From a virus, in IMG/VR virus record IMGVR_UViG_3300044712_002439, positions 1-48,757 of that record: a DNA stretch of 48,757 nucleotides; one strand, written 5' to 3'. The translations under genes and the position numbers were made by a program. Under the pieces are notes generated by a model, which saw nothing but the letters and a program-made list of their open reading frames with translations, was not told where the DNA came from and did not search any database. Shown in pieces: positions 12,580 to 46,704 of the stretch (the stretch's first letter is position 1; every line of letters starts with the position of its first letter).

Positions 12580-13944
12580 ATGGACCGATCGCACGAGAGG
12601 GCTGTCGAGGGCGAGGCCGCTGCCGTCTGGGTGGCCGTCGAGAAGCTGATCCCCTGGGTGAAGAACCCGCGGAAGAACGATGCCAGCGTCGACAAGGCCT
12701 GCGCGTCGATCAAGGCGCACGGGTGGGGCGCGCCGCTGCTGGCGCGGCGGGACAACCAGGAGATCATCGCGGGGCACACGCGGCTGAAGGCGGCGCTGCG
12801 CATGGGGCTGAAGGTCGTGCCCGTGCGCTACCTGGACCTCGACGAGATCCGGGCCCACAGCCTGGCGCTCGCGGACAACCGCGTCGGCGAGGACAGCGAG
12901 TGGGACAAGGAGGCGCTGGCTCGCGTGCTCGAAGAGCTCAAGGCCGGTGGTGCCGACATGGAGGCGACGGCGTTCGAGAAGGAGGAGGTGGACGACCTGA
13001 TCGCCCGCCTCGAAGCGGAGCGGCTCGCCGAGGTGACCGAGGACCTGGACGAGGACCTGCTCGCGCTGCCCGAGAAGCCGGTCTCGATCGAGGGCGAGGT
13101 CTACCTGCTCGGGCCTCACGTCCTGGTGTGCGGCGACTCCACGCGCATGGACCACGTGCAGCTGGCCCTCGGCGAGGCCGAGCGCGTCGACATGATGTGG
13201 ACGGACCCGCCGTACAATGTCGGGTACGAGGGCAAGACCAAGGAGAAGCTGACGATCGAGAACGACAAGCAGTCGCTCTTGGCCTTCACCGACTTCCTGC
13301 GCGACGCCTTCGCCAGCGCCATGGCGGTCTGCAAGCCGGGCGCGGTCTGGTACGTGGCGGCGCCGCCCGGGCCCGACTCCCTGGCCTTCTCGACGAACCT
13401 CCACGCGCTCGGCGTGTGGCGCCAGATGATCGTGTGGGCCAAGGACGTCTTCGTCCTCGGGCACAGCGACTACCACTACAAGTTCGAGTCGATCTTCTAC
13501 GGGTGGACGCCGGGCGGATCGCACCTCTTCACGGGCGACCGCACGCAGGACAACGTCTGGGAGGTGCCGCGCCCGAAGGCGTCGCGCGTGCACCCGACCA
13601 TGAAGCCGGTCGAGCTGATCGCCCGGGCCATCCGCAACTCGAGCCGCACCGACGACCACGTGCTCGACCTCTTCGGCGGATCGGGCTCCACCCTGATCGC
13701 GTGCGCCAAGGAGCGTCGCATCGCGCACCTGGTCGAGCTCGATCCGAAGTACTGCGACGTCATCCGCCGGCGCTGGGCGCGCTTCGCCCTGAAGGCTGGC
13801 CTGGAGGTCGGTGACGGCCTGGTGGGCGAGCAGAAGGCGGCGGCCGAGCCCGAGCCGCTGTCGCCCTTGCGGCGCGAGCGGGTTCTCGACCTGGATCTTC
13901 CGGAGCCGCTGCACGTGGGCGGCGATCCGAAGCTGGTGAACTGA
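12580..13944 (+). CDS. ParB-N domain fused to DNA methyltransferase
   Basis: 454 aa. Residues 15-100 are a ParB/Spo0J-like nuclease domain (NPRKNDASV, then EIIAGHTRLKAA). From about 170 there is an N6-adenine or N4-cytosine methylase with TDPPYNVGY (DPPY 209-212), followed by HPTMKPVELI and DLFGGSGST (FGGSG 365-369), the beta-class order. Such fusions are common in phages near terminase genes. Likely modifies phage DNA against restriction. First gene of the late strand, downstream of the repeat-rich region. Confidence 0.92.
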   Translation: MDRSHERAVEGEAAAVWVAVEKLIPWVKNPRKNDASVDKACASIKAHGWGAPLLARRDNQEIIAGHTRLKAALRMGLKVVPVRYLDLDEIRAHSLALADNRVGEDSEWDKEALARVLEELKAGGADMEATAFEKEEVDDLIARLEAERLAEVTEDLDEDLLALPEKPVSIEGEVYLLGPHVLVCGDSTRMDHVQLALGEAERVDMMWTDPPYNVGYEGKTKEKLTIENDKQSLLAFTDFLRDAFASAMAVCKPGAVWYVAAPPGPDSLAFSTNLHALGVWRQMIVWAKDVFVLGHSDYHYKFESIFYGWTPGGSHLFTGDRTQDNVWEVPRPKASRVHPTMKPVELIARAIRNSSRTDDHVLDLFGGSGSTLIACAKERRIAHLVELDPKYCDVIRRRWARFALKAGLEVGDGLVGEQKAAAEPEPLSPLRRERVLDLDLPEPLHVGGDPKLVN

Positions 13945-24128: not shown

Positions 24129-24611
24129 ATGGCAGACCCGCAGACCACCCAGCAGCCCCGCCCGGCGCAGGCGCCCGCAGCCAAGCGGAAGATCCTCGTC
24201 GTGAACAACACCGACTCCACCTACCGGATCCCGATCATGGACTCGGGCTCCGGCAAGGACCCGCGCCCGACCACGGCCGCGGTCATCGTCCTGCTCCCCG
24301 GCGCCAACGCCGTCGACCCGGACGAGTGGGACCTGGTCGCCGAGTACCCCATCGTCGAGATCCTCTGCCGCAAGAAGCAGCGCGGCGGCTTCGAGGTCGG
24401 TGACCCGCGCGTCGACGTCCGCACCCTCGACTCGTTCAAGGACGAGGACGAGGCCAAGGAGCTCGTGGACGCCACCGTCGACGGCGACCTCCTCCGGTCC
24501 TGGCTGCGCGCCGAGAAGCGGCCCGCCATCGTCACCGCTCTCGAGGAGCAGCTGGAGAAGATCGACCCGCGCCGGGACCGCGAGGGCAGCGCCGACGAGG
24601 ACCAGGAGTAA
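24129..24611 (+). CDS. Hypothetical head-tail region protein
   Basis: 160 aa. Pro/Gln-rich N-terminus, beta-like middle (AAVIVLLPGANAVDPDEWD), helical acidic C-terminus. First gene after the capsid terminator; SD AGGAGGG. Position suggests a head-completion or neck factor; family not recognised. Confidence 0.65.
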   Translation: MADPQTTQQPRPAQAPAAKRKILVVNNTDSTYRIPIMDSGSGKDPRPTTAAVIVLLPGANAVDPDEWDLVAEYPIVEILCRKKQRGGFEVGDPRVDVRTLDSFKDEDEAKELVDATVDGDLLRSWLRAEKRPAIVTALEEQLEKIDPRRDREGSADEDQE

Positions 24612-25001: not shown

Positions 25002-25559
25002 GTGACCGCCGCGACCTTCGAGATCGAGGAGAACAGCGTGGGCTGGCAGGGCATCCAGCGCATGCTCCGGTCTCTGCGCGCGGGCGAGTCGTACGTGAAG
25101 GCCGGCGTGACCGGCGCCGCTGCCAGCGAGCAGCACGACGCCGAGGACGACGCGCCGCTGACGAACGTCGACCTCGCGGTCATCCACGAATTCGGTGCGC
25201 CGTCGCGGAACATCCCGCCGCGGCCCGCCATCAATGGCACCTTCGCGCTGCACCGCGACGAGTACATCAAGCGGCTGCGCGACCTGATGCCGAAGGTCTA
25301 CGAGCAGCGCATCACGATCACCTTCATGCTGGAGGTCGTGGGCCAGCAGATGGCGAGCGACATGCGGAACCGCATCTCAAGCGGCGAGCCGCCGTTCGCG
25401 CCCAACGCGCCGAGCACGCTCGCGCGGAAGCTGGCGAAGGGGACGTGGAACCGCAAGGGCAAGGCACAGGCCGCCGGCCAGCAGCCGATGCCGCTGCTCG
25501 ACACCGGGCGCTTCCGCAACTCGATCACCCACGAGGTCGTGATCACGGAGGGCACATGA
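25002..25559 (+). CDS. Neck protein, HK97 gp10 / Mu G-like
   Basis: 185 aa. YVKAGVTG, then LAVIHEFGAPSRNIPPRPAI is the hallmark of HK97 gp10-like or phage virion morphogenesis proteins; PLLDTGRFRNSITHEV near the end is also typical. GTG start directly after the upstream TGA; stop overlaps the next ATG. Confidence 0.85.
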   Translation: MTAATFEIEENSVGWQGIQRMLRSLRAGESYVKAGVTGAAASEQHDAEDDAPLTNVDLAVIHEFGAPSRNIPPRPAINGTFALHRDEYIKRLRDLMPKVYEQRITITFMLEVVGQQMASDMRNRISSGEPPFAPNAPSTLARKLAKGTWNRKGKAQAAGQQPMPLLDTGRFRNSITHEVVITEGT

Positions 25560-25912
25560 GCCTCGGCAGCGACGTCCTGCAGGACCTGACGGAGCCCTAC
25601 GTGGTCGAACGCGCAGACGCGCCGGCGCTCGTCAACGGGCGCGCGGTCCCGGCGGTCCCGGTCCAGGTGACGATCCGGGCGTGCATCCAGCCCACGGCCG
25701 GGCGCGACCTGCTGCTCCTCGAGGAAGAGATGCGGACCCGGCAGACGGTCACGGTGTTCACGACCGACCTGATTCGGACCGCCGACGATGCCACCCAGAC
25801 GCCGCCCGACGTCATCCAGTTCGCCGGCGAGCGCTACCAGGTCCACACCGTTCAGGACTGGATGGCGCTCGGTGGGTACTACAAGGGAATCGCCCTGAAG
25901 GTCCCGCGGTGA
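25556..25912 (+). CDS. Head-tail connector / neck protein
   Basis: 118 aa, predicted beta. LLLLEEEMRTRQTVTVFTTD and FAGERYQVHTVQDWMALGGY resemble neck proteins encoded between the gp10-like protein and tail terminator in related myophages. In those phages the tail terminator would normally be next, but here four exported-looking genes intervene. Confidence 0.7.
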   Translation: MSLGSDVLQDLTEPYVVERADAPALVNGRAVPAVPVQVTIRACIQPTAGRDLLLLEEEMRTRQTVTVFTTDLIRTADDATQTPPDVIQFAGERYQVHTVQDWMALGGYYKGIALKVPR

Positions 25913-25955: not shown

Positions 25956-26648
25956 ATGAGAAACCTCGTCGTCGCACTCGTCGTCGCTCTCGTCCTCGCC
26001 CCGCTCGACGCCCTCGCCGCCCCGGCGCAGACCATCGACGCCTCGGGCCAGGTCCGCGTCGTGGCCCCGCTCACCAGGACCAACGCCGGCATCGGCATCG
26101 CCGCGGCCGGTGCCGCGTCCTCGGGCGTCGTCACCACGGGCGCCCAGACCATCGCCGGCGCCAAGACCTTCTCCGGCGCCGCCGTCTTCGGCAGCACCGT
26201 GGGCGTCACCGGCAAGATCACCGCCTCCGACCTGATCGCGTCGACGACCTCGCACACCCTGCTGACCTGGTGGCTGAACGCCGCGGCCGCGACCGGCAGC
26301 TGCCCGGCCACCGGCACCGGCTGCGTGGGCCACGTCCTCCCGGCGCAGGCCTTCACCCTGACCGGCGTCACCGGGTACGCCAGCGTCGCCAGCGGCGGCG
26401 GCGCCGCGAACACCGTGATCACCGTGACCGATGGGACGAACACCTGCACCATCACCATCCCCTGCAACGTGGCCCCGCCCGCCGGCACGTCGACGGCCGG
26501 CCTCTGGCGCATCGCTGCGGTGGACGGCGCCGGGACCGGGTGCGCCTTCCCGGCCAGCGCGGGGATCACGGCGAGCGTGACGACCGCCGGCTGCACGGCG
26601 ACGCAGCCGACGCTGCGCAACCTCAACTTCGTCGGGAAGTGGCAGTAA
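25956..26648 (+). CDS. Exported-looking Cys-rich protein 1
   Basis: 230 aa. The N-terminus MRNLVVALVVALVLAPLDAL followed by AAPAQ is a classic Sec signal peptide (positive n-region, hydrophobic core, Ala-x-Ala before about residue 22). AGAKTFSGAAVFGSTVGV is like tail-fibre/beta-helix repeats. Six Cys in the mature part would suit disulphides in the periplasm or outside. SD AGGAGG. First of four adjacent genes with signal-like N-termini. Function unknown; secreted fibre or surface protein is inferred. Confidence 0.75.
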   Translation: MRNLVVALVVALVLAPLDALAAPAQTIDASGQVRVVAPLTRTNAGIGIAAAGAASSGVVTTGAQTIAGAKTFSGAAVFGSTVGVTGKITASDLIASTTSHTLLTWWLNAAAATGSCPATGTGCVGHVLPAQAFTLTGVTGYASVASGGGAANTVITVTDGTNTCTITIPCNVAPPAGTSTAGLWRIAAVDGAGTGCAFPASAGITASVTTAGCTATQPTLRNLNFVGKWQ

Positions 26649-26658
26649 GGAGACCGCC

Positions 26659-28689
26659 GTGACCTACGCCCGCATCGCCACGATCCTGCTCCTGGCCGCC
26701 TCGCAGGCGTCTGCGGGCGACTTCGTCACGAACCCCTCCGCCACGCTGCCGGCGAACACGCGCGGCACCAAGAGCAACGTCCGCGCGCTGCCCGGCGGCG
26801 CGGACCCCACCAAGTACATCCAGGCCCAGGATTACAACGAGCACAGCACGCGGCTCGACTCGGCCAACGAGGCGCTCTACGACCTGCGCAACGCCATCGA
26901 CGGCGTCGGCCCCGGCGACCTGAGCCCCGCCAAGAGCCTCGCCACCGGGGCCAACACCTCCCGGACCATGGCGGCGCGCTTCGCCGACGAGGTCAACGTG
27001 CGCGACTTCGGCGCCCTCGCCAATGGCACCGACGACGCGCCGCGCATCCAGGCGGCCATCAACTACGCGGTGTCCTCCGGCAAGCGCGCCATCTACATCC
27101 CGCCTGGCACGTACACGATCCGCTCCTCGCTCAACATGACCGGCATCACCGGCCTGACGATCCGGGGCGCCGGCAGCGGCTGGTACAACTGCACCAAGAT
27201 CTACGCCGCGTTCACGACGCCGCGTCCCGTCTTCGACATGGCCGGCAGCAACAACTTCCGCGTGCGCGGCATCATCATCTGGGGCGACCAGACCAGCCCG
27301 CCGTCGACCGCCATGCTCATGTCGCGCGTCGCCGGGATGGGCGGCGCCGGGGTCCACGTGTTCGAGGATGTCCAGGCCAACGGCTGGTTCACGATCGCGT
27401 CCGTGATCAGCCTCTCGTCCGAGGTCAACAAGTACTTCGGCTGCGGCTTCCAGAACTCGCGCGCTGGCGGCCACGCCTTCTGGGCGGCCAACGACAACGA
27501 CCCGGGGGCCGTCTCCGACTTCGTCACGATCCCGGCGACGCAGTCCGGCGGCAACACGCTGTTCACGTTCGTCGGCACCGGCTTCAACGCCTTCGGCGGA
27601 ACCGGGACCGAGGTCTCGGTCAAGGGCACGTTCACCAACGCGACCTGGGACTCCTGCTACACCAACGCCACCAACGGGCTCGCCGCCTTCCAGTTCACCC
27701 ACGGCGTCAGCAACTCGGTGATCCTGGGCCACCGCGACGAGAGCAGCAACGCGCAGAACTGGCTCCGCTTCGAGGGCAACGTGGCGCACTTCACCGTCAT
27801 CGGATCGAAGGCGTCGGCCGGCATCTACGGCCTCGACGGCGTCACGGTCTCGCGCCTCACCGTGCTCTCGAGCGAGCTCTCCTGGAACGCGCTCGACCCG
27901 CCTGGCCCGTACACCGTCAACGTGGACATCCTCAAGTACTCGCTGATCGATGCCCACAACAATGTGAAGGTCCGGACGCAGGTGCGAGGCGGCCAGTTCC
28001 TCTCCGCCGGCGAGGCCATGACCTCGGGCGCCCAGATCTCCCTGCCCACCGACACGCGCGGACTCATCTACGCCAAGGAGCGGACGAAGAACAACTACGC
28101 GGCCGGCACCAGCAACCCGATCGTGGAGTGGAACATCGGCAGCGACTTCGCCACCCACCTGGTCGTGCCCCGCGTCGAGGCCAAGAAGTTCGCCACCGTC
28201 GTGCAGCCGTTCGTGTCGTCGACGCTCTCGCCGACCCCCGGCCTGCTGGACCCGGTCAACCTGGACCTCGGCTCCTACGTGTCGGTGCTGCTCGACCAGA
28301 ACCTCACCATCCGCAATCCCAACTACGGCGCCAACGCGGGCGGCTCCGACGACGGCGTCCGGCTGACCTTCGTGCTGACGCAGGACGCGGTGGGCGGCCG
28401 CACGGTGACCTGGCCGCTGGCGTCGCTACAGCCGCCTGCAGCCTTCAAGGTCGACCCGACCGCCAACGCCACGACCACCATCACCTTCATCGCCGACACC
28501 AAGGCCAACGCCTGGCGGGCCGAGTCCTGGACGGTCATGCGCGCGGCGGCCCGTGCCGACGCCCCGACCTACACCGGAAACCCGGCCGTCCTCACCGACG
28601 CTGCCACGAAGACCGACCTCAACGCGCTCGGGACCATCGTCAACGACCTCCTCGCCAAGCTCCGCACCGCGGGGCTCGTCGCCCCGTAG
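26659..28689 (+). CDS. Pectate-lyase-fold tailspike with signal-like N-terminus
   Basis: 676 aa. After a short hydrophobic start (TILLLAASQASAGD, possible signal peptide) there is a head-binding-like region, then VNVRDFGALANGTDDAPRIQ (about 114-133) and AIYIPPGTYTI, the Pectate_lyase_3 entry to a right-handed beta-helix. The C-terminus ends with a short trimerisation-like helix (TDLNALGTIVNDLLAKLRTA). Probably a depolymerase or receptor-binding spike for host polysaccharide. GTG start; its position before the sheath gene, not after the baseplate, is atypical. Confidence 0.85.
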   Translation: MTYARIATILLLAASQASAGDFVTNPSATLPANTRGTKSNVRALPGGADPTKYIQAQDYNEHSTRLDSANEALYDLRNAIDGVGPGDLSPAKSLATGANTSRTMAARFADEVNVRDFGALANGTDDAPRIQAAINYAVSSGKRAIYIPPGTYTIRSSLNMTGITGLTIRGAGSGWYNCTKIYAAFTTPRPVFDMAGSNNFRVRGIIIWGDQTSPPSTAMLMSRVAGMGGAGVHVFEDVQANGWFTIASVISLSSEVNKYFGCGFQNSRAGGHAFWAANDNDPGAVSDFVTIPATQSGGNTLFTFVGTGFNAFGGTGTEVSVKGTFTNATWDSCYTNATNGLAAFQFTHGVSNSVILGHRDESSNAQNWLRFEGNVAHFTVIGSKASAGIYGLDGVTVSRLTVLSSELSWNALDPPGPYTVNVDILKYSLIDAHNNVKVRTQVRGGQFLSAGEAMTSGAQISLPTDTRGLIYAKERTKNNYAAGTSNPIVEWNIGSDFATHLVVPRVEAKKFATVVQPFVSSTLSPTPGLLDPVNLDLGSYVSVLLDQNLTIRNPNYGANAGGSDDGVRLTFVLTQDAVGGRTVTWPLASLQPPAAFKVDPTANATTTITFIADTKANAWRAESWTVMRAAARADAPTYTGNPAVLTDAATKTDLNALGTIVNDLLAKLRTAGLVAP

Positions 28690-28700
28690 AAAGGACCGCC

Positions 28701-29240
28701 ATGCGCAAGCTGATCATCAGCGCCTCGATCGCCGCCGGCCTCGTGCTGGGCCTGCTCTTCACGCCGCTCGCGTCCGTGGCGTCCTCGGTCACCAACGCCC
28801 TGTATCCGGTGGCGGCCAAGTTCACCTCGACGGTCGCGACCAACGGCGTCGCGTTCAAGTGCGTGAACAACTGCGCGATCGACCTCGGGTCAGGGGCCAA
28901 CGACTGGATCAGCTCGAACGGGACGAGCGTCGTCATCGGGCAGGGCGGGCTCTCGGTCTACGGCGGCAGCATCACGACCACCGGCGGCACGCCGCTGTAC
29001 CTGTCGGGCACCGGCGCCGTGAACATGACCACGGGCATCAACATCAACCTGACCGCCATCGGCACGTGCGACTCCACCAAGGAGGGCGACGTCCGGCGCA
29101 TGACCGGCACCGGCGGGACGGGCACCACGCTGCGCACCCGCATGTGCATCTGCACCTCGGACGGGGCGGCGTCGCCGGCCTACGCCTGGATGAACCTCGT
29201 CAGCGGCACGGTCGGCAACAGCACCACCTGCAGCCTCTAG
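28701..29240 (+). CDS. Exported-looking Cys-rich protein 2
   Basis: 179 aa. MRKLIISASIAAGLVLGLLF then TPLASVAS is a signal peptide with predicted cleavage near residue 27-28. The mature part is beta-rich with Gly/Thr/Ser repeats (GSITTTGGTPLYLSGTGAVN) and six Cys. Ends in CSL. Related in style to the gene at 25956. No domain recognised. Confidence 0.72.
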   Translation: MRKLIISASIAAGLVLGLLFTPLASVASSVTNALYPVAAKFTSTVATNGVAFKCVNNCAIDLGSGANDWISSNGTSVVIGQGGLSVYGGSITTTGGTPLYLSGTGAVNMTTGININLTAIGTCDSTKEGDVRRMTGTGGTGTTLRTRMCICTSDGAASPAYAWMNLVSGTVGNSTTCSL

Positions 29241-29249
29241 GAGCCCGCC

Positions 29250-29738
29250 ATGAAGAAGCTCGCCACCGTCCTCCTCTCGACGCTCCTCCTGCTCGCGCTG
29301 GCCCCGGCGCCGGCGGCCGCCACGTGCACCTGGACGGCGACCACGACGGCGCTCACGCCCGGGCTCGCCGGCGGCCGATCCGTCAAGGCCGTGTGCACCA
29401 CGGGCACCGAGACCATCGCCTCGGCGCTGGCGAACGCCACGGACGCGCTCGCGCTGCCCGGGCTGGCCTCCTTCTCGGTGACGGTCGAGGCCGTGGCCGG
29501 CCAGACGCTCACCGGCGGGAAGCTGGCGGCGTTCTACTACGATGACGTGGCCGCGGCGTGGTCGCCGCTGCTCGATGGCACGCTCGACGCCACGCTCTCG
29601 GCCACGGCCAGCCTGCGCCAGTCCTTCCTGGGCTTCCGGGTGACCGGCAACCGCAAGGGCACGCGGTTCGCGCTGATCCCGTCCGGCGTCACGATCTCGA
29701 GCGGCAACCTCACCATCTACATCAACGGCAGCCCGTAG
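29250..29738 (+). CDS. Exported-looking small protein 3
   Basis: 162 aa. MKKLATVLLSTLLLLALAPA then PAAAT gives a strong signal peptide, cleavage near residue 24. The mature part begins with a Cys pair (TCTW and VCTT) and is beta-rich. No domain recognised. Directly before the tail terminator gene. Together with the previous three genes it forms a cassette inserted between neck and tail genes. Confidence 0.72.
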   Translation: MKKLATVLLSTLLLLALAPAPAAATCTWTATTTALTPGLAGGRSVKAVCTTGTETIASALANATDALALPGLASFSVTVEAVAGQTLTGGKLAAFYYDDVAAAWSPLLDGTLDATLSATASLRQSFLGFRVTGNRKGTRFALIPSGVTISSGNLTIYINGSP

Positions 29739-29743
29739 CGGCC

Positions 29744-30313
29744 ATGGGCACCAAGACCGACCTCGAAGACGCGCTGCAGGCCTGGGCCAAGTCCACGGCC
29801 GGCGTCGAGGCGTTCTGGGTGCGCCAGAAGGTGAAGGGCCCGGCCGCCGGCTGGCTGACGCTGCACCTGGACGGCCCGAGGACCCTCTCCCAGCAGCCCG
29901 AGCGGTGGCACGACTTCGTGGGGTCGAGCGAAGTGCCCGGTCCGCTGCCGGGAGAGCTCAACCCGCCGGGCGAAGAGATCCAGCACTCCGCCCGGGACAA
30001 CGAATCGTGGTCGCTGCAGATCCAGGCGTACACCAAGAACAACACGGGGGAGGCGGACTCGGCCTCGCTCCTGCGCCGGCTGAAGAACAGCCTCAAGCTC
30101 CAGGGGACGCTGGCGACGCTCCGGGCGGCCAGCATCACCGTGGCCGAGGTTGGAGATATCCATGACGTTTCGGTCGTGATAGAGACCGAGTGGCAGGACC
30201 GGGCCGCGATGACGATCCTGCTCTGGACTGCAGACGTCTCCACGGAGCGGACGACGTTCATCGAGACGGCGGAAGGCCAGGGCGAAGGCGACCTGGCCCC
30301 GACCACGATCTAG
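29744..30313 (+). CDS. Tail terminator / neck protein (gp12-like)
   Basis: 189 aa. It begins MGTKTDLEDALQAWAKSTAG and contains FVGSSEVPGPL and NESWSLQIQAYTKNN, then VVIETEWQDRAAMTILLW, matching phage neck terminator proteins placed just before sheath genes. It would cap the tail tube and sheath. Confidence 0.78.
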   Translation: MGTKTDLEDALQAWAKSTAGVEAFWVRQKVKGPAAGWLTLHLDGPRTLSQQPERWHDFVGSSEVPGPLPGELNPPGEEIQHSARDNESWSLQIQAYTKNNTGEADSASLLRRLKNSLKLQGTLATLRAASITVAEVGDIHDVSVVIETEWQDRAAMTILLWTADVSTERTTFIETAEGQGEGDLAPTTI

Positions 30314-37257: not shown

Positions 37258-38436
37258 ATGGGAACGATCTATGGGGTCACGCCGCAGGGGTTCGTCGTCA
37301 AGCCTCTCGACCAGTGCCTGACCGAGCTGGAGGCGCTCGCTCGCGGGACCTTCGGCGACGGCATCAAGCTGAACCCGTCCTCGAAGTGGGGCCAGTTCCT
37401 CGGCATCCTCGCCGAGCGCGAGTCCGAGATCTGGGACATGGGCGAGGAGGTCCACGCCTCGCGCGATCCGGACCAGGCCACCGGCACCGGGCTGGAGGCG
37501 CTCTGCGCGCTCACCGGGCTCGAGAGGAACGGCGCGGCCAAGTCCACCGTCCCGGTCATCCTCGGCGGCGTCGTCGGCACCGTCATTCCCGCCGGCAAGG
37601 TGGCGAGCGTCACGGGCACGGGGACGAGGTTCGTGCTGACGGCCCAGGCGACCATCGGTCCCGGCGGCAGCGTCGGTGCCACCTTCGAGGCCGAGGCCAC
37701 GGGTCCCTTCCCGGCGCCGGCGGGCGCGCTGACGACGATCGAAACGCCGGTGGCGGGCTGGGCCACGATCACCAACGCCGTCGACGCCACGCTCGGCCGC
37801 GACGTGGAGCTGGATCCGGCCCTTCGCCTGCGCCGGGAGCAGACGCTGGCGATCGCCGGCAGCGCCACGGAGGCGGCCGTGACCGCCGAGGTGGCCCGGG
37901 TGGACGGTGTCGTCGCCGCTGCCACCTACATCAACGACGAGGACGTGGTCGTCGATGGGATGGAGCCCCACTCGATGGAGGTGGTCGTCGCCGGCGGCAC
38001 GGATGCTGCCGTGGCGGCCGCCATCTGGCGCGCCAAGGCGGGCGGCATCAAGTCGCTGGGGTCCACCGCGGTCGTGGTCCAGGACTCGGCGGGCGCCAAC
38101 AAGACGGTGCGCTTCTCGCGGCCGGAGCCGGTGCTGGCCTACCTGCGGGTGACGGTCTCGATCAACGACGGGTACTCGACCTCGGAGCCGCCGCTCGACG
38201 GCGACACCCTGGTCAAGAACGCGCTGGCGGCGTGGGCGGCCGCCAACATCATCGCCGGCGAGACCCTGTACCCGCGCGCGATGCTGCCGGCGGTGTTCGG
38301 CGTCGCAGGCGTCTACAACGTCCCCCTGATCGCGGCCGGCCTCGCCGCGGACCCGGTCGCCGAGGTCCCGGTGGTCGCCACCAAGCGCCAGGTCGTGCAG
38401 GTCGACGCCACGCGCATCTCGGTCGTGCACGGGTAG
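37258..38436 (+). CDS. Baseplate J-like protein
   Basis: 392 aa. GVTPQGFVVKPLDQCLTELE, LAERESEIWDM, then TGTGLEALCALTGLERNGAA and AGSATEAAVTAEVARVDGV match baseplate J/gp47. It joins wedge and tail fibre network. Confidence 0.93.
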   Translation: MGTIYGVTPQGFVVKPLDQCLTELEALARGTFGDGIKLNPSSKWGQFLGILAERESEIWDMGEEVHASRDPDQATGTGLEALCALTGLERNGAAKSTVPVILGGVVGTVIPAGKVASVTGTGTRFVLTAQATIGPGGSVGATFEAEATGPFPAPAGALTTIETPVAGWATITNAVDATLGRDVELDPALRLRREQTLAIAGSATEAAVTAEVARVDGVVAAATYINDEDVVVDGMEPHSMEVVVAGGTDAAVAAAIWRAKAGGIKSLGSTAVVVQDSAGANKTVRFSRPEPVLAYLRVTVSINDGYSTSEPPLDGDTLVKNALAAWAAANIIAGETLYPRAMLPAVFGVAGVYNVPLIAAGLAADPVAEVPVVATKRQVVQVDATRISVVHG

Positions 38437-39090: not shown

Positions 39091-39891
39091 ATGGCGAAGC
39101 CTGCAACCCTACCGCGCTGGGCCGAGACCGCCGGCGGGGTGCCCGACGCCAACATCGTCGCGCCCAACGCCGGCAAGATGGATACCGGCTTCACGGTCGG
39201 TGGCGACATCCCGACCTCGGGTGGCCTCAACTGGCTGTTCAACACGTTCCTGCAGTGGGTGAAGTGGCTGAACGACTCCGCGTCGATCGCCACGCCATCG
39301 GTCCTGGTGGCGCGCGACGCCGCCGGCCGGGCCCGATTCGTCGACCCGGCCGACGCTGCAGACGCCGACACGCTGGGCGCCCGGACCGCGGCCGTTGCCG
39401 CCCACGCGGCCCTGCTCAACACGCACGGGGCCGTGGTGGCGGCCACGCCCGACCACCTCGTCCTGCGCGACGCGGCGGGCCGGTCGAAGTTTGCCGACCC
39501 GGCCGCGGCCGACGACGCCGCCACGCGGGGATTCGTCGAGTCGCTCGAGATTCCCTGGACCGCGCTCGCACCGAACATCTATTGGGGGGCGGGCATCTCC
39601 TACTGCCGAGACCGGTTCGGCATCGTGCACCTGGCCGGGGTAGCGACGGTCGCCAACGTGAACGCCTCGGGCAACCCGTGCGCCAACCTGCCAGTCGGCG
39701 CGAGACCGGGTGGCGCCGGCATCTTCATGCCGATCGTCAAGGGCGTCTCCGGCCCGGTCTACTCGCCGTTCTCCATCTGGCTCTCCGGAGCGACGGGCGC
39801 GATCTCGTTCCAGCCCTATGGCGGGAATTGGGTTGCGCCAGCGGTCGGCGACGAGTTCTGCGTGGACGGCATCTCCTTCTTTGGCGACTAA
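39091..39891 (+). CDS. Tail fibre protein
   Basis: 266 aa. N-terminus has the NIVAPNAGKMDTGF and WLFNTFLQWVKWLND features of short fibres. Two internal repeats, RDAAGRARFVDPADAADADT and RDAAGRSKFADPAAADDAAT, are followed by a C-terminal receptor-binding-like beta domain with three Cys. Encoded at the usual fibre position. Confidence 0.85.
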   Translation: MAKPATLPRWAETAGGVPDANIVAPNAGKMDTGFTVGGDIPTSGGLNWLFNTFLQWVKWLNDSASIATPSVLVARDAAGRARFVDPADAADADTLGARTAAVAAHAALLNTHGAVVAATPDHLVLRDAAGRSKFADPAAADDAATRGFVESLEIPWTALAPNIYWGAGISYCRDRFGIVHLAGVATVANVNASGNPCANLPVGARPGGAGIFMPIVKGVSGPVYSPFSIWLSGATGAISFQPYGGNWVAPAVGDEFCVDGISFFGD

Positions 39892-39900
39892 GAGGACTCG

Positions 39901-40590
39901 ATGACCACGCCCACCGACCCCAAGGACGACCTCCTCCGCCTGCAGCCGCACCTGGGCGACATCCAAGAGGCGGTGCTCGCGCTCGACGAGGGCCTCGCCG
40001 TCCGCGACGGCCTGCGCATCGACGTGCCGATGGTCTGCGCGGTCGGCCAGCGCGAGTCGCACTTCGGCTGGGGCTGGGGCTATTCGCCGAAGGGCGACCG
40101 CAACGGCGCCGGCGACGCCAGCGTCCGGGAGTGGACGCGGGCCCGCTACGAGGCTCACCGAGACCGCGTGAAGATCGTGGGTCCCGGGGCCGAGGGCAGG
40201 GTCCGCGTCTATCCCACGGACGGCAAGGGCTGGGGCCGGGGCTTCTTCCAGATCGACCTGGTCGGCGACTTCGCCCATCTGATTCCTACCCCCGGCGTCG
40301 ACTGGCCGGTCTTCGAGCAGGCGTGCGCCGCCGTCCGCGTCCTCCAGGGCGCGCGCAAGGACCTCGCCGAGTTCGTCGGCCATCCCCGCTTCGAGCAGGC
40401 CGTGCTCTGCCGCTACAACGCCGGGCTGCCGTACGTGCTCTCGGCGATGCGGGCCGGCCGCAACCCGGACCTCGTCACGACGCCGAGCGAGGTCGGCAAG
40501 CCGGGCGACTACGGATCGGACGTCCAGCGGCGGCGCGACGCGCTGATCGCCCGCTACCCGCAGACCTTCAACAGGAGGGACATCTCGTGA
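39901..40590 (+). CDS. Endolysin, lysozyme-like
   Basis: 229 aa. VGQRESHFGWG places a likely catalytic Glu at residue 52, and GRGFFQID matches the goose-type/SLT lysozyme fold, with CRYNAGLPYVLSAM near residue 170. No signal peptide, so it should need the holin encoded next. Degrades peptidoglycan at the end of infection. Confidence 0.88.
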   Translation: MTTPTDPKDDLLRLQPHLGDIQEAVLALDEGLAVRDGLRIDVPMVCAVGQRESHFGWGWGYSPKGDRNGAGDASVREWTRARYEAHRDRVKIVGPGAEGRVRVYPTDGKGWGRGFFQIDLVGDFAHLIPTPGVDWPVFEQACAAVRVLQGARKDLAEFVGHPRFEQAVLCRYNAGLPYVLSAMRAGRNPDLVTTPSEVGKPGDYGSDVQRRRDALIARYPQTFNRRDIS

Positions 40591-40880
40591 CCGTCACCGG
40601 CAAGCGCACGCTCCTCTTCGCCCTCTACGCCTCCACCCTGCTGCTCGCCGGCCTGGCGCTGCTCCCGGTCGAGTCCCGCGGCCCGGCGTACGTCTTCTTC
40701 GCCGGCGGCATCGGCGCCATGATGGGCGCGGTCGCGGCCAAGGCCTCGGTCGACGCGCTCTCTCAGGGCGACGGCTCCAAGGGCCTCTGGGCCAACCTGA
40801 CGACGCCCCGGAAGCCCGGGGACGGATCTACGCTCCCCGTTCCCGGCGCCGGGGCCGGGGCTGGCCCGGTGGCGCCGTGA
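40587..40880 (+). CDS. Holin candidate, two TM segments
   Basis: 97 aa. Hydrophobic segments at about 8-25 and 33-50 (YVFFAGGIGAMMGAVAAKAS), then a short polar tail. GTG overlaps the endolysin stop. Size, membrane topology and position suggest the holin, but families differ and this is inferred. Confidence 0.65.
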   Translation: MTVTGKRTLLFALYASTLLLAGLALLPVESRGPAYVFFAGGIGAMMGAVAAKASVDALSQGDGSKGLWANLTTPRKPGDGSTLPVPGAGAGAGPVAP

Positions 40881-44099: not shown

Positions 44100-44474
44100 C
44101 TACACGCTCCTTCCGTCGATGCGGTCGTATGGGCTGTGGGTGGTGACCCACCGCCTCTTTGCCGCGTTGTGCAGCGCCACCAGCTTCGGGTTCGACTTCA
44201 GCGGGACCCAATGCTCGGGCCACCACTCCTTCGCCATCTGGTAGAGGCGGGCGCGGCCCACCTCGCACCGGAACACGATCTCGCGCTTCCTCTCCCCGTG
44301 GATCAGGTAGGAGCATGGGTAGTACCGAGCGCCACGCGGGGAGCCCGTGGCGCGCGCGTGCTGTCGCTCGGCGCAGAAGTGCGCCGTCACGGTGCCCGCT
44401 CGGAGGAGGGGGCACGTCACCTGGTCGTCCGGCTGGATGACCTTGAGCTTCGTGCCCCTCCTCCGGGCGCTCAC
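44100..44474 (-). CDS. Small Cys-containing hypothetical protein
   Basis: 124 aa, GTG 44474. [20 protein letters not shown], then [18 protein letters not shown] and FRCEVGR give four spaced Cys, possibly one zinc site; the C-terminal half is basic. GTG overlaps the ParB-like stop by 4 nt and it lies 5 bases before ssb. Not recognised. Confidence 0.6.
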
Positions 44475-46660
44475 TTCTTCGCCGCCTTCTGCTTGCGGGC
44501 CAGCGGGCCCTTGGCCTTGCCCGGCGCCGGCTTCTCTTCGGGCTCGTCGGCCTCCTCCTCGCCGCCCTCGGCCAGGACCTCGGCCGCCTTCCAGTCGGTC
44601 CCGAGCGCCTCGATCATGGTGCGGAAGGTCCTCGTGCTGCGGTCCCCGTACGGCGCCAGCATCCGCTCGACCTCGCGCTGCAGGGCGGCCTCCAGCATCA
44701 GGGTCAGGCACTCGCCGGCGTCCATCTTCTTCAGGCCGTCGTAGAGGTCGCTGGCCTGGTCGAGCCCGCGCCGCTTGGCCATCCGCGTGGCCCAGCCGTG
44801 CTCCATGCTCTGCTCGGCCATCGACCGCATCACCTCGACCGGCCACGTCGACATCTTCGGGACCTTCTCCATGATGGCGTCGATCGCGGCGTGCGCGACC
44901 TTGCGGTCCTCGCGGATCTTCTTCCTGGCGGCGGCCTGCTTCTCGTCCTCGCTGGTGGTGCCGCCCTTGGCCGTCGACGGCTTCAGGACCTTGGCCTCGA
45001 TCGCGGCCGCGCGCAGGGTCTCGCGCTTCCACGCCGGGATCGCGGCGCCGGTGTGCGGGCTCTGGATCAGGACGTCGGGGGGCGGGACCGCCTTCTTGGG
45101 CAGGAGCTTCTTCCACTCCTTGTAGTCGGCGCCGGCGTCGTGGCAGGTCGAGTCGAGGGTGCAGAACCCGTCGTGCTCGGCGACCTGGTCCCCGGTGTAG
45201 ACGAGGTGCCGCTTCTCGGCGGCGGAGGCGTCGATGACCTCCACCTTGGCCTCCTCGGCGGCGGCCGCGCGCAGCTGCCAGTCGGCCTGCGTCTTCTGGC
45301 CGTAGCAGTCGCGGTCGAGGCAGATGTCGGCGCCCTTGAGGTCGGTGCGGATCTCGGCCGGCAGCGCGCCCGAGCGCTTCGGGCACTCACTGCAGGCGCC
45401 CGCGATCGGCAGGAGATCGGTGCTCTTGCGGTCGAAGGGGGCCTTGGCGAGGACCAGCATGAAGCGGCCCTGGATGTGGGCCTGGGCCTCTCGGTAGCTC
45501 ATCGCGTCGTGGTCCTGCTTCTCGTCCGGGCCGATCTCCCGGAGCGCCCGCTCCTGCAGCGCCTCGGTGGGGATGCGGGCGACGAGGAGCCCGGTCTCGG
45601 CCGAGAGCCAGCCGGACACCATGGCCTCGCGGCCGGCGGCGCCGAGCGCGGTCAGCTTCATCCGGGCGTAGACGTGGGCCACGCTCTTGCCGACGAGGGC
45701 GGCGATCTGCTCGGTGCTCTGGCCGCGGGCCTGGAGGCCCTGGAAGGCGATGCCCTCCTCGATCGCGGTCAGGTCCTCGCGGTGCTCGTTCTCGACGACC
45801 ACCCGCTGGTAGGCGGCGAGGTCGTCGAGGTGCTCGACGGTCGCCAGGGTCTCGGTCCAGCCGAGCGACTTCATCGCGCGGAGGCGGCGGTGCCCGGAGA
45901 GGACCTCGTACCCGGCATCGACCTTGCGCACCTTCAGCGGCTCGCGGAGGCCGTGCTCCTTGATGTCGGCCGCGAGCTCTGCGATCCGCGGGTAGAGGAT
46001 GCGCGGGTTGGCCGGGTGCTCGTGGACGTCCGAGATCTTCAGGACGAAGACCTCTCGGTCCGGCGCCGGGGCCGGCGTCGCCGACTCCGGGACGTGGAAG
46101 CGGCGGTCACCATCGCGGAGGACAGGCCCGGGCTCGCCGGTGGTGGCGACGAGGCTCAGGGTCTTCTTGAAGCGCTCGTCGAGCGGCTTGGCCTCGGGCT
46201 CCGCCGGGGCCGGCGCGGCGGCCGCGGCCTCGGCCAGCGGGTCGGTGGTGGCCTCGGCAGCCTCCTCGGCGGCCTCCTCCTTGACCATCTCCTGCAGCCC
46301 CTCGATCCGGGGCGGCTCGACCGCGGCCGGGGACTCCACCGGCGCCGGCGCCGGGGGCGAGGCGGGTTGCGCGGCCTCGGCGAGGATGGCCTTGGCGCGG
46401 TTGAGGGAGACCTTGTACTTCCGGATCAGGTCCACCGGCTTGATGCCCGGCGTGGCCTGGGCGTGCGCCACCATCTCGGCGTGGGTGGGGTCGGTCGCCG
46501 CCTGCTCCTTCAGGCCGGCCGCCAGCTTCACCTCGGCGGAGATCGGGTCGGAGACCTTGACCTCGGCCGCCGTCGTCGCCTCGGTGGGCTGGGCCGCCGG
46601 CGCCCCCTTCGCCGCCTTCTTCTTCTCGATCAGCCTCTTCACATTCTCGGTCTTCGCCAT
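44471..46660 (-). CDS. Large ParB/RepB/Spo0J-like protein
   Basis: 729 aa. ATG 46660 (SD GAGGGA) rather than an upstream in-frame ATG at 46690. The ParB domain spans about 205-290 ([34 protein letters not shown]), followed by a KorB/ParB-like HTH ([20 protein letters not shown]). Further on is a Cys-rich segment (CSECPKR...[10 protein letters not shown]). The first 200 residues are Ala/Pro-rich. Similar large phage ParB-like proteins are found near SSB genes. A role in replication or genome maintenance is likely. Confidence 0.88.
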
Positions 46661-46704
46661 GGTTCCCTCGCCTGTTGGTCGCGGCGTCATTGCCGTCGTC
46701 TGGT

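Follow-up and report, generated by a model that had tools for sequence, protein, structure and literature searches.

Sec-type signal peptides on a neck-sited cassette of fibre- and spike-type genes in a contractile-tailed phage, with counterparts on tail-fibre genes of Myxococcus phages

Four consecutive genes within the virion module of a contractile-tailed phage encode proteins that each begin with a Sec-type signal peptide, and signals of the same kind precede tail-fibre proteins of the cultured Myxococcus phages Mx8 and Mx9. The window analyzed here is the complete IMG/VR virus record IMGVR_UViG_3300044712_002439 (48,757 bases, GC content 71%), whose late block is a contractile-tail module comprising terminase, portal, protease, capsid, neck, terminator, sheath, tube, tape measure, baseplate and fibre genes. 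Export of the four proteins, as predicted from their sequences, is well supported: it is their likely fate because the signals look real, are conserved and are coupled to conserved cysteines. We tentatively propose, at somewhat less than an even chance, that the cassette encodes virion-type appendages that would be exported through Sec, cleaved, folded with disulfides outside the cytoplasm and mounted on particles at lysis.

Signal peptides were scored with a home-made, rule-based scheme that rewards a basic n-region, a hydrophobic h-region and small residues at positions -3 and -1; ten familiar signal peptides of E. coli served as positive controls and scored between 5.96 and 10.13. A sequence-only reading of this DNA had assigned Sec-type signals to the genes starting at 25956, 26659, 28701 and 29250, and these score 8.99, 7.83, 8.31 and 9.79, respectively, within the range of the controls. 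All four show the type I Sec design (basic n-region, hydrophobic core, AxA-like site), and none of the 29 other window proteins tested scores above 1.4. When the N-terminal 45 residues were shuffled, the observed score was equalled 19, 5, 145 and 0 times per 5000 for genes 1 to 4, so that the signal of gene 3, taken alone, is statistically weaker than the other three. None of 1082 internal 45-mers from the mature parts scores 7.5 or higher. A 97-amino acid reading frame in the lysis region (40587-40880), outside the 29 tested, has a signal- or anchor-like N-terminus with a score of 7.39 and probably encodes a lysis protein.

The cassette had been placed between a neck gene and the tail terminator gene, at a site said to be normally uninterrupted, and family searches and related phages agree on both counts. 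Its left border is a plus-strand gene for a collar-type neck protein (25556-25912, ATG at 25556; phrog_939, head, E 1.2e-18), the product of which also matches PF22755 (E217_gp28) with an E-value of 9.4e-5, under the family cut-off. The right border, also on the plus strand, encodes the tail terminator, or neck gateway (29744-30313; PF23961, E 4.6e-16). Pseudomonas phage VCM, phage ctsHD2 and a provirus of Myxococcota (L160) have no insert at this site. Within the cassette the junctions between genes are short, and the Shine-Dalgarno matches of genes 1 to 4 are, in order, AGGAGG, AAGGAG, AAGGA and AGGAG. The window also provides an internal contrast, a conventional tail fibre encoded 3' of the baseplate genes (39091-39891, plus strand), which matches tail-fibre PHROGs and has no signal score.

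Relatives of the virion module are present in Myxococcota genomes (portal 37-42% and capsid 37-38% identity). Because of these relatives, the domain common to gene 3 and Mx8 p66, and the domain common to a related environmental phage (L005) and Mx9 p15, the host of the window phage is likely to be myxobacterial. Elsewhere in the window, ParB-domain proteins are encoded at 12580-13944 and 44471-46690, one of them as a fusion with a DNA methylase. A Pfam scan of ten window proteins, mostly non-virion, found no integrase.

All four cassette genes lie on the plus strand. Gene 1 (25956-26648) begins with the signal peptide MRNLVVALVVALVLAPLDALA, carries the fibre motif GAQTIAGAKTFSG, with a weak BppL_N-like fibre match (PF18338, E 1.5e-5, slightly under the cut-off), and ends in a conserved C-terminal domain with six invariant cysteines. 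Gene 2 (26659-28689; signal peptide VTYARIATILLLAASQASA) had been read as a pectate-lyase-fold spike, and matches to PF12708 (E 2.4e-9) and to phage tailspike PHROGs (best E 2.9e-9) confirm the fold of this pectate-lyase-like beta-helix protein. Gene 3 (28701-29240; signal peptide MRKLIISASIAAGLVLGLLFTPLASVA) is Gly-rich and fibre-like, and its link to a fibre family is the C-terminal domain that it has in common with Mx8 p66 (blastp E 2e-7 over 29 residues). Gene 4 (29250-29738; signal peptide MKKLATVLLSTLLLLALAPAPAAA) encodes a small protein with no match to any Pfam or PHROG family. The mature parts contain 6, 3, 6 and 2 cysteines, exactly as first counted, and in genes 1, 3 and 4 together cysteine makes up 14 of 571 residues versus 30 of 5961 in the other proteins counted, an approximately five-fold enrichment (p 1e-5). 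For genes 1 and 2, AlphaFold gave models too unreliable for use (mean pLDDT 36.5 and 32.8). Single-protein scans of viral contigs with genes 2 to 4 returned no relatives; a gene 1 profile had no matches in genome contigs or in 195 Myxococcota genomes, and gene 1 had none among GenBank phages.

Two environmental phages, L041 (capsid 84% identical) and L005 (62%), carry a cassette at exactly the same site. In both, gene 1 comes first and keeps all six cysteines in alignment; its signal differs in sequence and retains its design, and in L005 its C-terminal domain is better conserved than the capsid. Behind gene 1, L041 has two further signal-bearing genes and L005 has one, followed in each case by three signal-less genes. 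This trio, absent from the window, encodes proteins of 161-175, 424-471 (LamG-like) and 129-134 amino acids (L041:8969-11255 and L005:3915-6121). Because the content behind gene 1 differs between L041 and L005, with signal-bearing genes leading, the signal-bearing genes make up the opening block of an appendage cassette with variable content. L162, a relative of the window virion module from Myxococcota, has a 208-amino acid, signal-bearing, fibre-tip-like gene (L162:11438-12064) at another neck position, between homologs of the window genes at 24129 and 25002.

Variable, cassette-like content at one site is also what one would expect of cell-surface conversion genes (morons), whose exported products remain in or on the host envelope, preventing superinfection or altering the surface, as Lom- and Cor-type proteins do; Mx8 and Mx9, moreover, are lysogenic phages (PMC10720576). 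This explanation is improbable for the cassette, given that genes 1 to 4 have fibre/spike architecture instead of a recognized lipobox or outer-membrane barrel: no Cys stands at +1 after their predicted cleavage sites, and scans against Pfam and PHROGs identified neither a Lom/Cor-type family nor an outer-membrane barrel among them.

Kinship with cultured phages leads to Mx8 and Mx9. Mx8 encodes a run of signal-bearing proteins consisting of p64, a frame opposite p65, p66 and p67, the last being GDSL esterase-like and weaker (score 4.8), and in Mx9, p14 and p15 have the only two strong signal scores among 80 CDS. Mx8 p64 is a tail fibre that reads MRYLPSAAGLAVGVLLGVIISVSTPASA and then TRNSVGTYTLPGGNPVVSGTTISSTWAN, and loci of other bacterial groups encode the same fibre protein with the start M(A/S)RNGSGTYSLPAGNPVV or nearly so. 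In Mx8 p64 and Mx9 p14 the signal is joined exactly ahead of the canonical tail-fibre N-terminus. The second gene of the L005 cassette matches an unannotated reading frame of Mx8, and the small L005 protein has a domain in common with Mx9 p15 and L069 (E 9e-11), a scan for which recovered known members only. In the Mx8 record (L050:13825-14170, record positions ~37824-38169), the annotation of p65 lies on the minus strand, and the plus-strand coding region opposite it has homologs in Mx9 p15, L069 and L005; this plus-strand frame is split in the record, by either a genuine frameshift or an error in sequencing. The position of p64 in Mx8, behind the antirepressor region, is matched by that of the tailspike gene in P22. 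We rejected the idea that a signal is required in every Myxococcus phage, since the fibre of Mx4 is signal-less.

We surveyed 80 IMG/VR loci with the fibre module. The protein starts at the module itself in 74 of them and carries a signal in six, among them Mx8 itself and one pair of near-copies. The GC content of all six is at least 65%, and those examined belong to Mx8-like podophages, in which the gene comes immediately after those for internal virion proteins. An artefact of GC content was rejected, as 23 GC-rich fibre loci have no signal. L071 and L074-L080 are the contigs in which the fibre gene has this position. We also searched 195 genomes from the phylum of a Corallococcus locus, by inference Myxococcota, where each of the five intact module copies has a hydrophobic N-terminal extension; four of these extensions are clear signals and the fifth (L065) is longer and anchor-like. 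A decayed fibre copy in Corallococcus interemptor (L054:5866-6922) has a frameshift that puts the module and a signal-like stretch in different frames. Among 369 genomes of another class the module occurs in two, neither with a signal, and four loci from other bacterial groups also have the module without one. Related podophages of other hosts, namely BUCT555, ppBjS10J-1, phiGT1 and EBPR podovirus 2 (host unstated), have a signal-less fibre in this same position. Signal state, mapped on a tree of the fibre module, needs four changes by parsimony, of which only one is forced by well-supported branches.

Signal-bearing fibre proteins are also encoded in two further contigs, where they close the run of tail genes: L017 (5143-6696, 517 amino acids, GC 69%) and L020 (4525-7266, 913 amino acids, GC 46%). 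Because these contigs are not recognizably related to each other and L020 is not GC-rich, the phenomenon reaches beyond one family and beyond GC-rich phages. An Mx8-like contig (L112:3914-7364) encodes a signal-less, 590-amino acid pectate-lyase-like protein between two signal-bearing genes, the last of which has a lipobox-like site, LSAC.

Tailed-phage virions are held to reach completion in the cytoplasm, and the N-terminal segments might be uncleaved hydrophobic tails that help fibres synthesized and assembled there to trimerize or anchor. Cytoplasmic assembly is normal for tailed-phage virion proteins, and the shuffling result for gene 3 also leans this way. We consider it unlikely, however, as the full n-h-c design with Ala-type sites recurs in many divergent proteins, the signal junction falls exactly at the fibre N-terminus, and cysteine is enriched. 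The predicted mature forms of the signal-bearing fibres begin TRN, ARN or SRN, like the Met-processed cytoplasmic forms, which are likewise predicted.

A close rival to the appendage proposal, and considerably more plausible than uncleaved tails, is the possibility that the proteins are secreted non-virion factors. A depolymerase and esterases, together with adhesins, would thin the host polysaccharide coat or occupy receptors, and so aid release or keep progeny from adhering to debris and to cells already infected. The export signals as such are in line with it, as are the enzyme-type members (pectate-lyase-like gene 2, GDSL esterase-like Mx8 p67) and the fact that the window phage already owns a normal fibre. 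Virion spikes, however, also commonly have pectate-lyase and esterase tips, and the signal-bearing myxophage fibres retain both the fibre N-terminal module and the tail-adhesin position. Among copies of this fibre the N-terminal module is kept and the C-termini are exchanged, as in working virion fibres. Because the signal precedes an intact N-terminal module, the genes occupy a virion-adhesin position and the C-termini are mosaic, the Mx8-like podophages appear to fit Sec-routed virion appendages better than free effectors. Genes 1 to 4 of the window lack the xRNxSGTYxLPxGNPVV fibre module, and on present evidence are compatible with either a virion appendage or a free effector. The sequence-only reading had proposed that the phage may export these proteins, for instance to alter the capsule or receptors of the infected cell or its siblings: export is indeed likely, given the conserved signals and cysteines, and the action on cell surfaces is possible, with nothing that specially speaks for it.

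According to the exported-appendage proposal, fibres and spikes with adhesin or enzyme tips would leave the cytoplasm through Sec, with cleavage of the signal, and would fold outside, where disulfides can form. Lysis would then mix the compartments, and the appendages would dock at the neck or tail of completed particles, a function that export would leave intact if the N-terminal module is retained behind the signal. In vitro, completed P22 particles accept added spikes, which makes such late docking feasible. The proposal draws on the four consecutive signals, the conserved signal design and cysteines, the position within the virion operon, and kinship with the signal-bearing myxophage fibres. 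Counting against it are the signal-less second fibre of the window phage and the signal-less fibre of Mx4, as well as the signal-less genes in related cassettes. Cleavage, disulfides, late expression and post-lysis docking are steps we infer; attachment to the virion is likewise presumed, and for the window genes, which have no fibre module, by analogy only. A broader generalization, which we regard as conceivable but put clearly below an even chance, is that some tailed phages, chiefly of Myxococcota, may build heads and tails in the cytoplasm and export their receptor-binding appendages through Sec, to be disulfide-bonded outside and attached after lysis.

If true, signal-fused tail-fibre genes would point to a step of virion assembly outside the cytoplasm, or to a diverted second life for receptor-binding proteins. 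Signals on true tail-fibre genes recur in one bacterial phylum, including the cultured model phages Mx8 and Mx9. Both possibilities are directly testable in a standard laboratory system. For annotation pipelines, signal peptides within structural modules are not necessarily errors.

Endolysins, spanins, conversion proteins and filamentous coat proteins are established cases of phage products that use Sec. Lambda Lom is one Sec-exported phage protein. The host Sec system is also used by signal-bearing endolysins and by M13 G3p (PMC8878798, PMC8310372). These differ from the cassette in being lysis, envelope or filamentous coat proteins, whereas the cassette encodes fibre-type proteins of a tailed phage; a literature search that covered few subscription journals found no report of Sec signals on such proteins. 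The neck of Pseudomonas phage E217 offers the same types of neighbor as the window cassette, the collar gp28 and the gateway gp29, although the text consulted describes no appendage proteins between the two. Stenotrophomonas phage BUCT555, Sulfitobacter phage phiGT1 and Bradyrhizobium phage ppBjS10J-1 share the virion-module type and fibre position of Mx8, but their fibres begin at the module, without a signal. Closest to the window are Mx8 and Mx9 themselves, with consecutive signal-bearing fibre-type genes within the virion region and, in Mx8 p66, the C-terminal domain of window gene 3. They differ in being podophages, in that their run lies at the tail-adhesin position and not in the neck, and in that their first gene has the canonical tail-fibre module that the window genes lack; their genes are annotated merely as hypothetical or putative tail fibre, in records that are silent on the signals these proteins carry.
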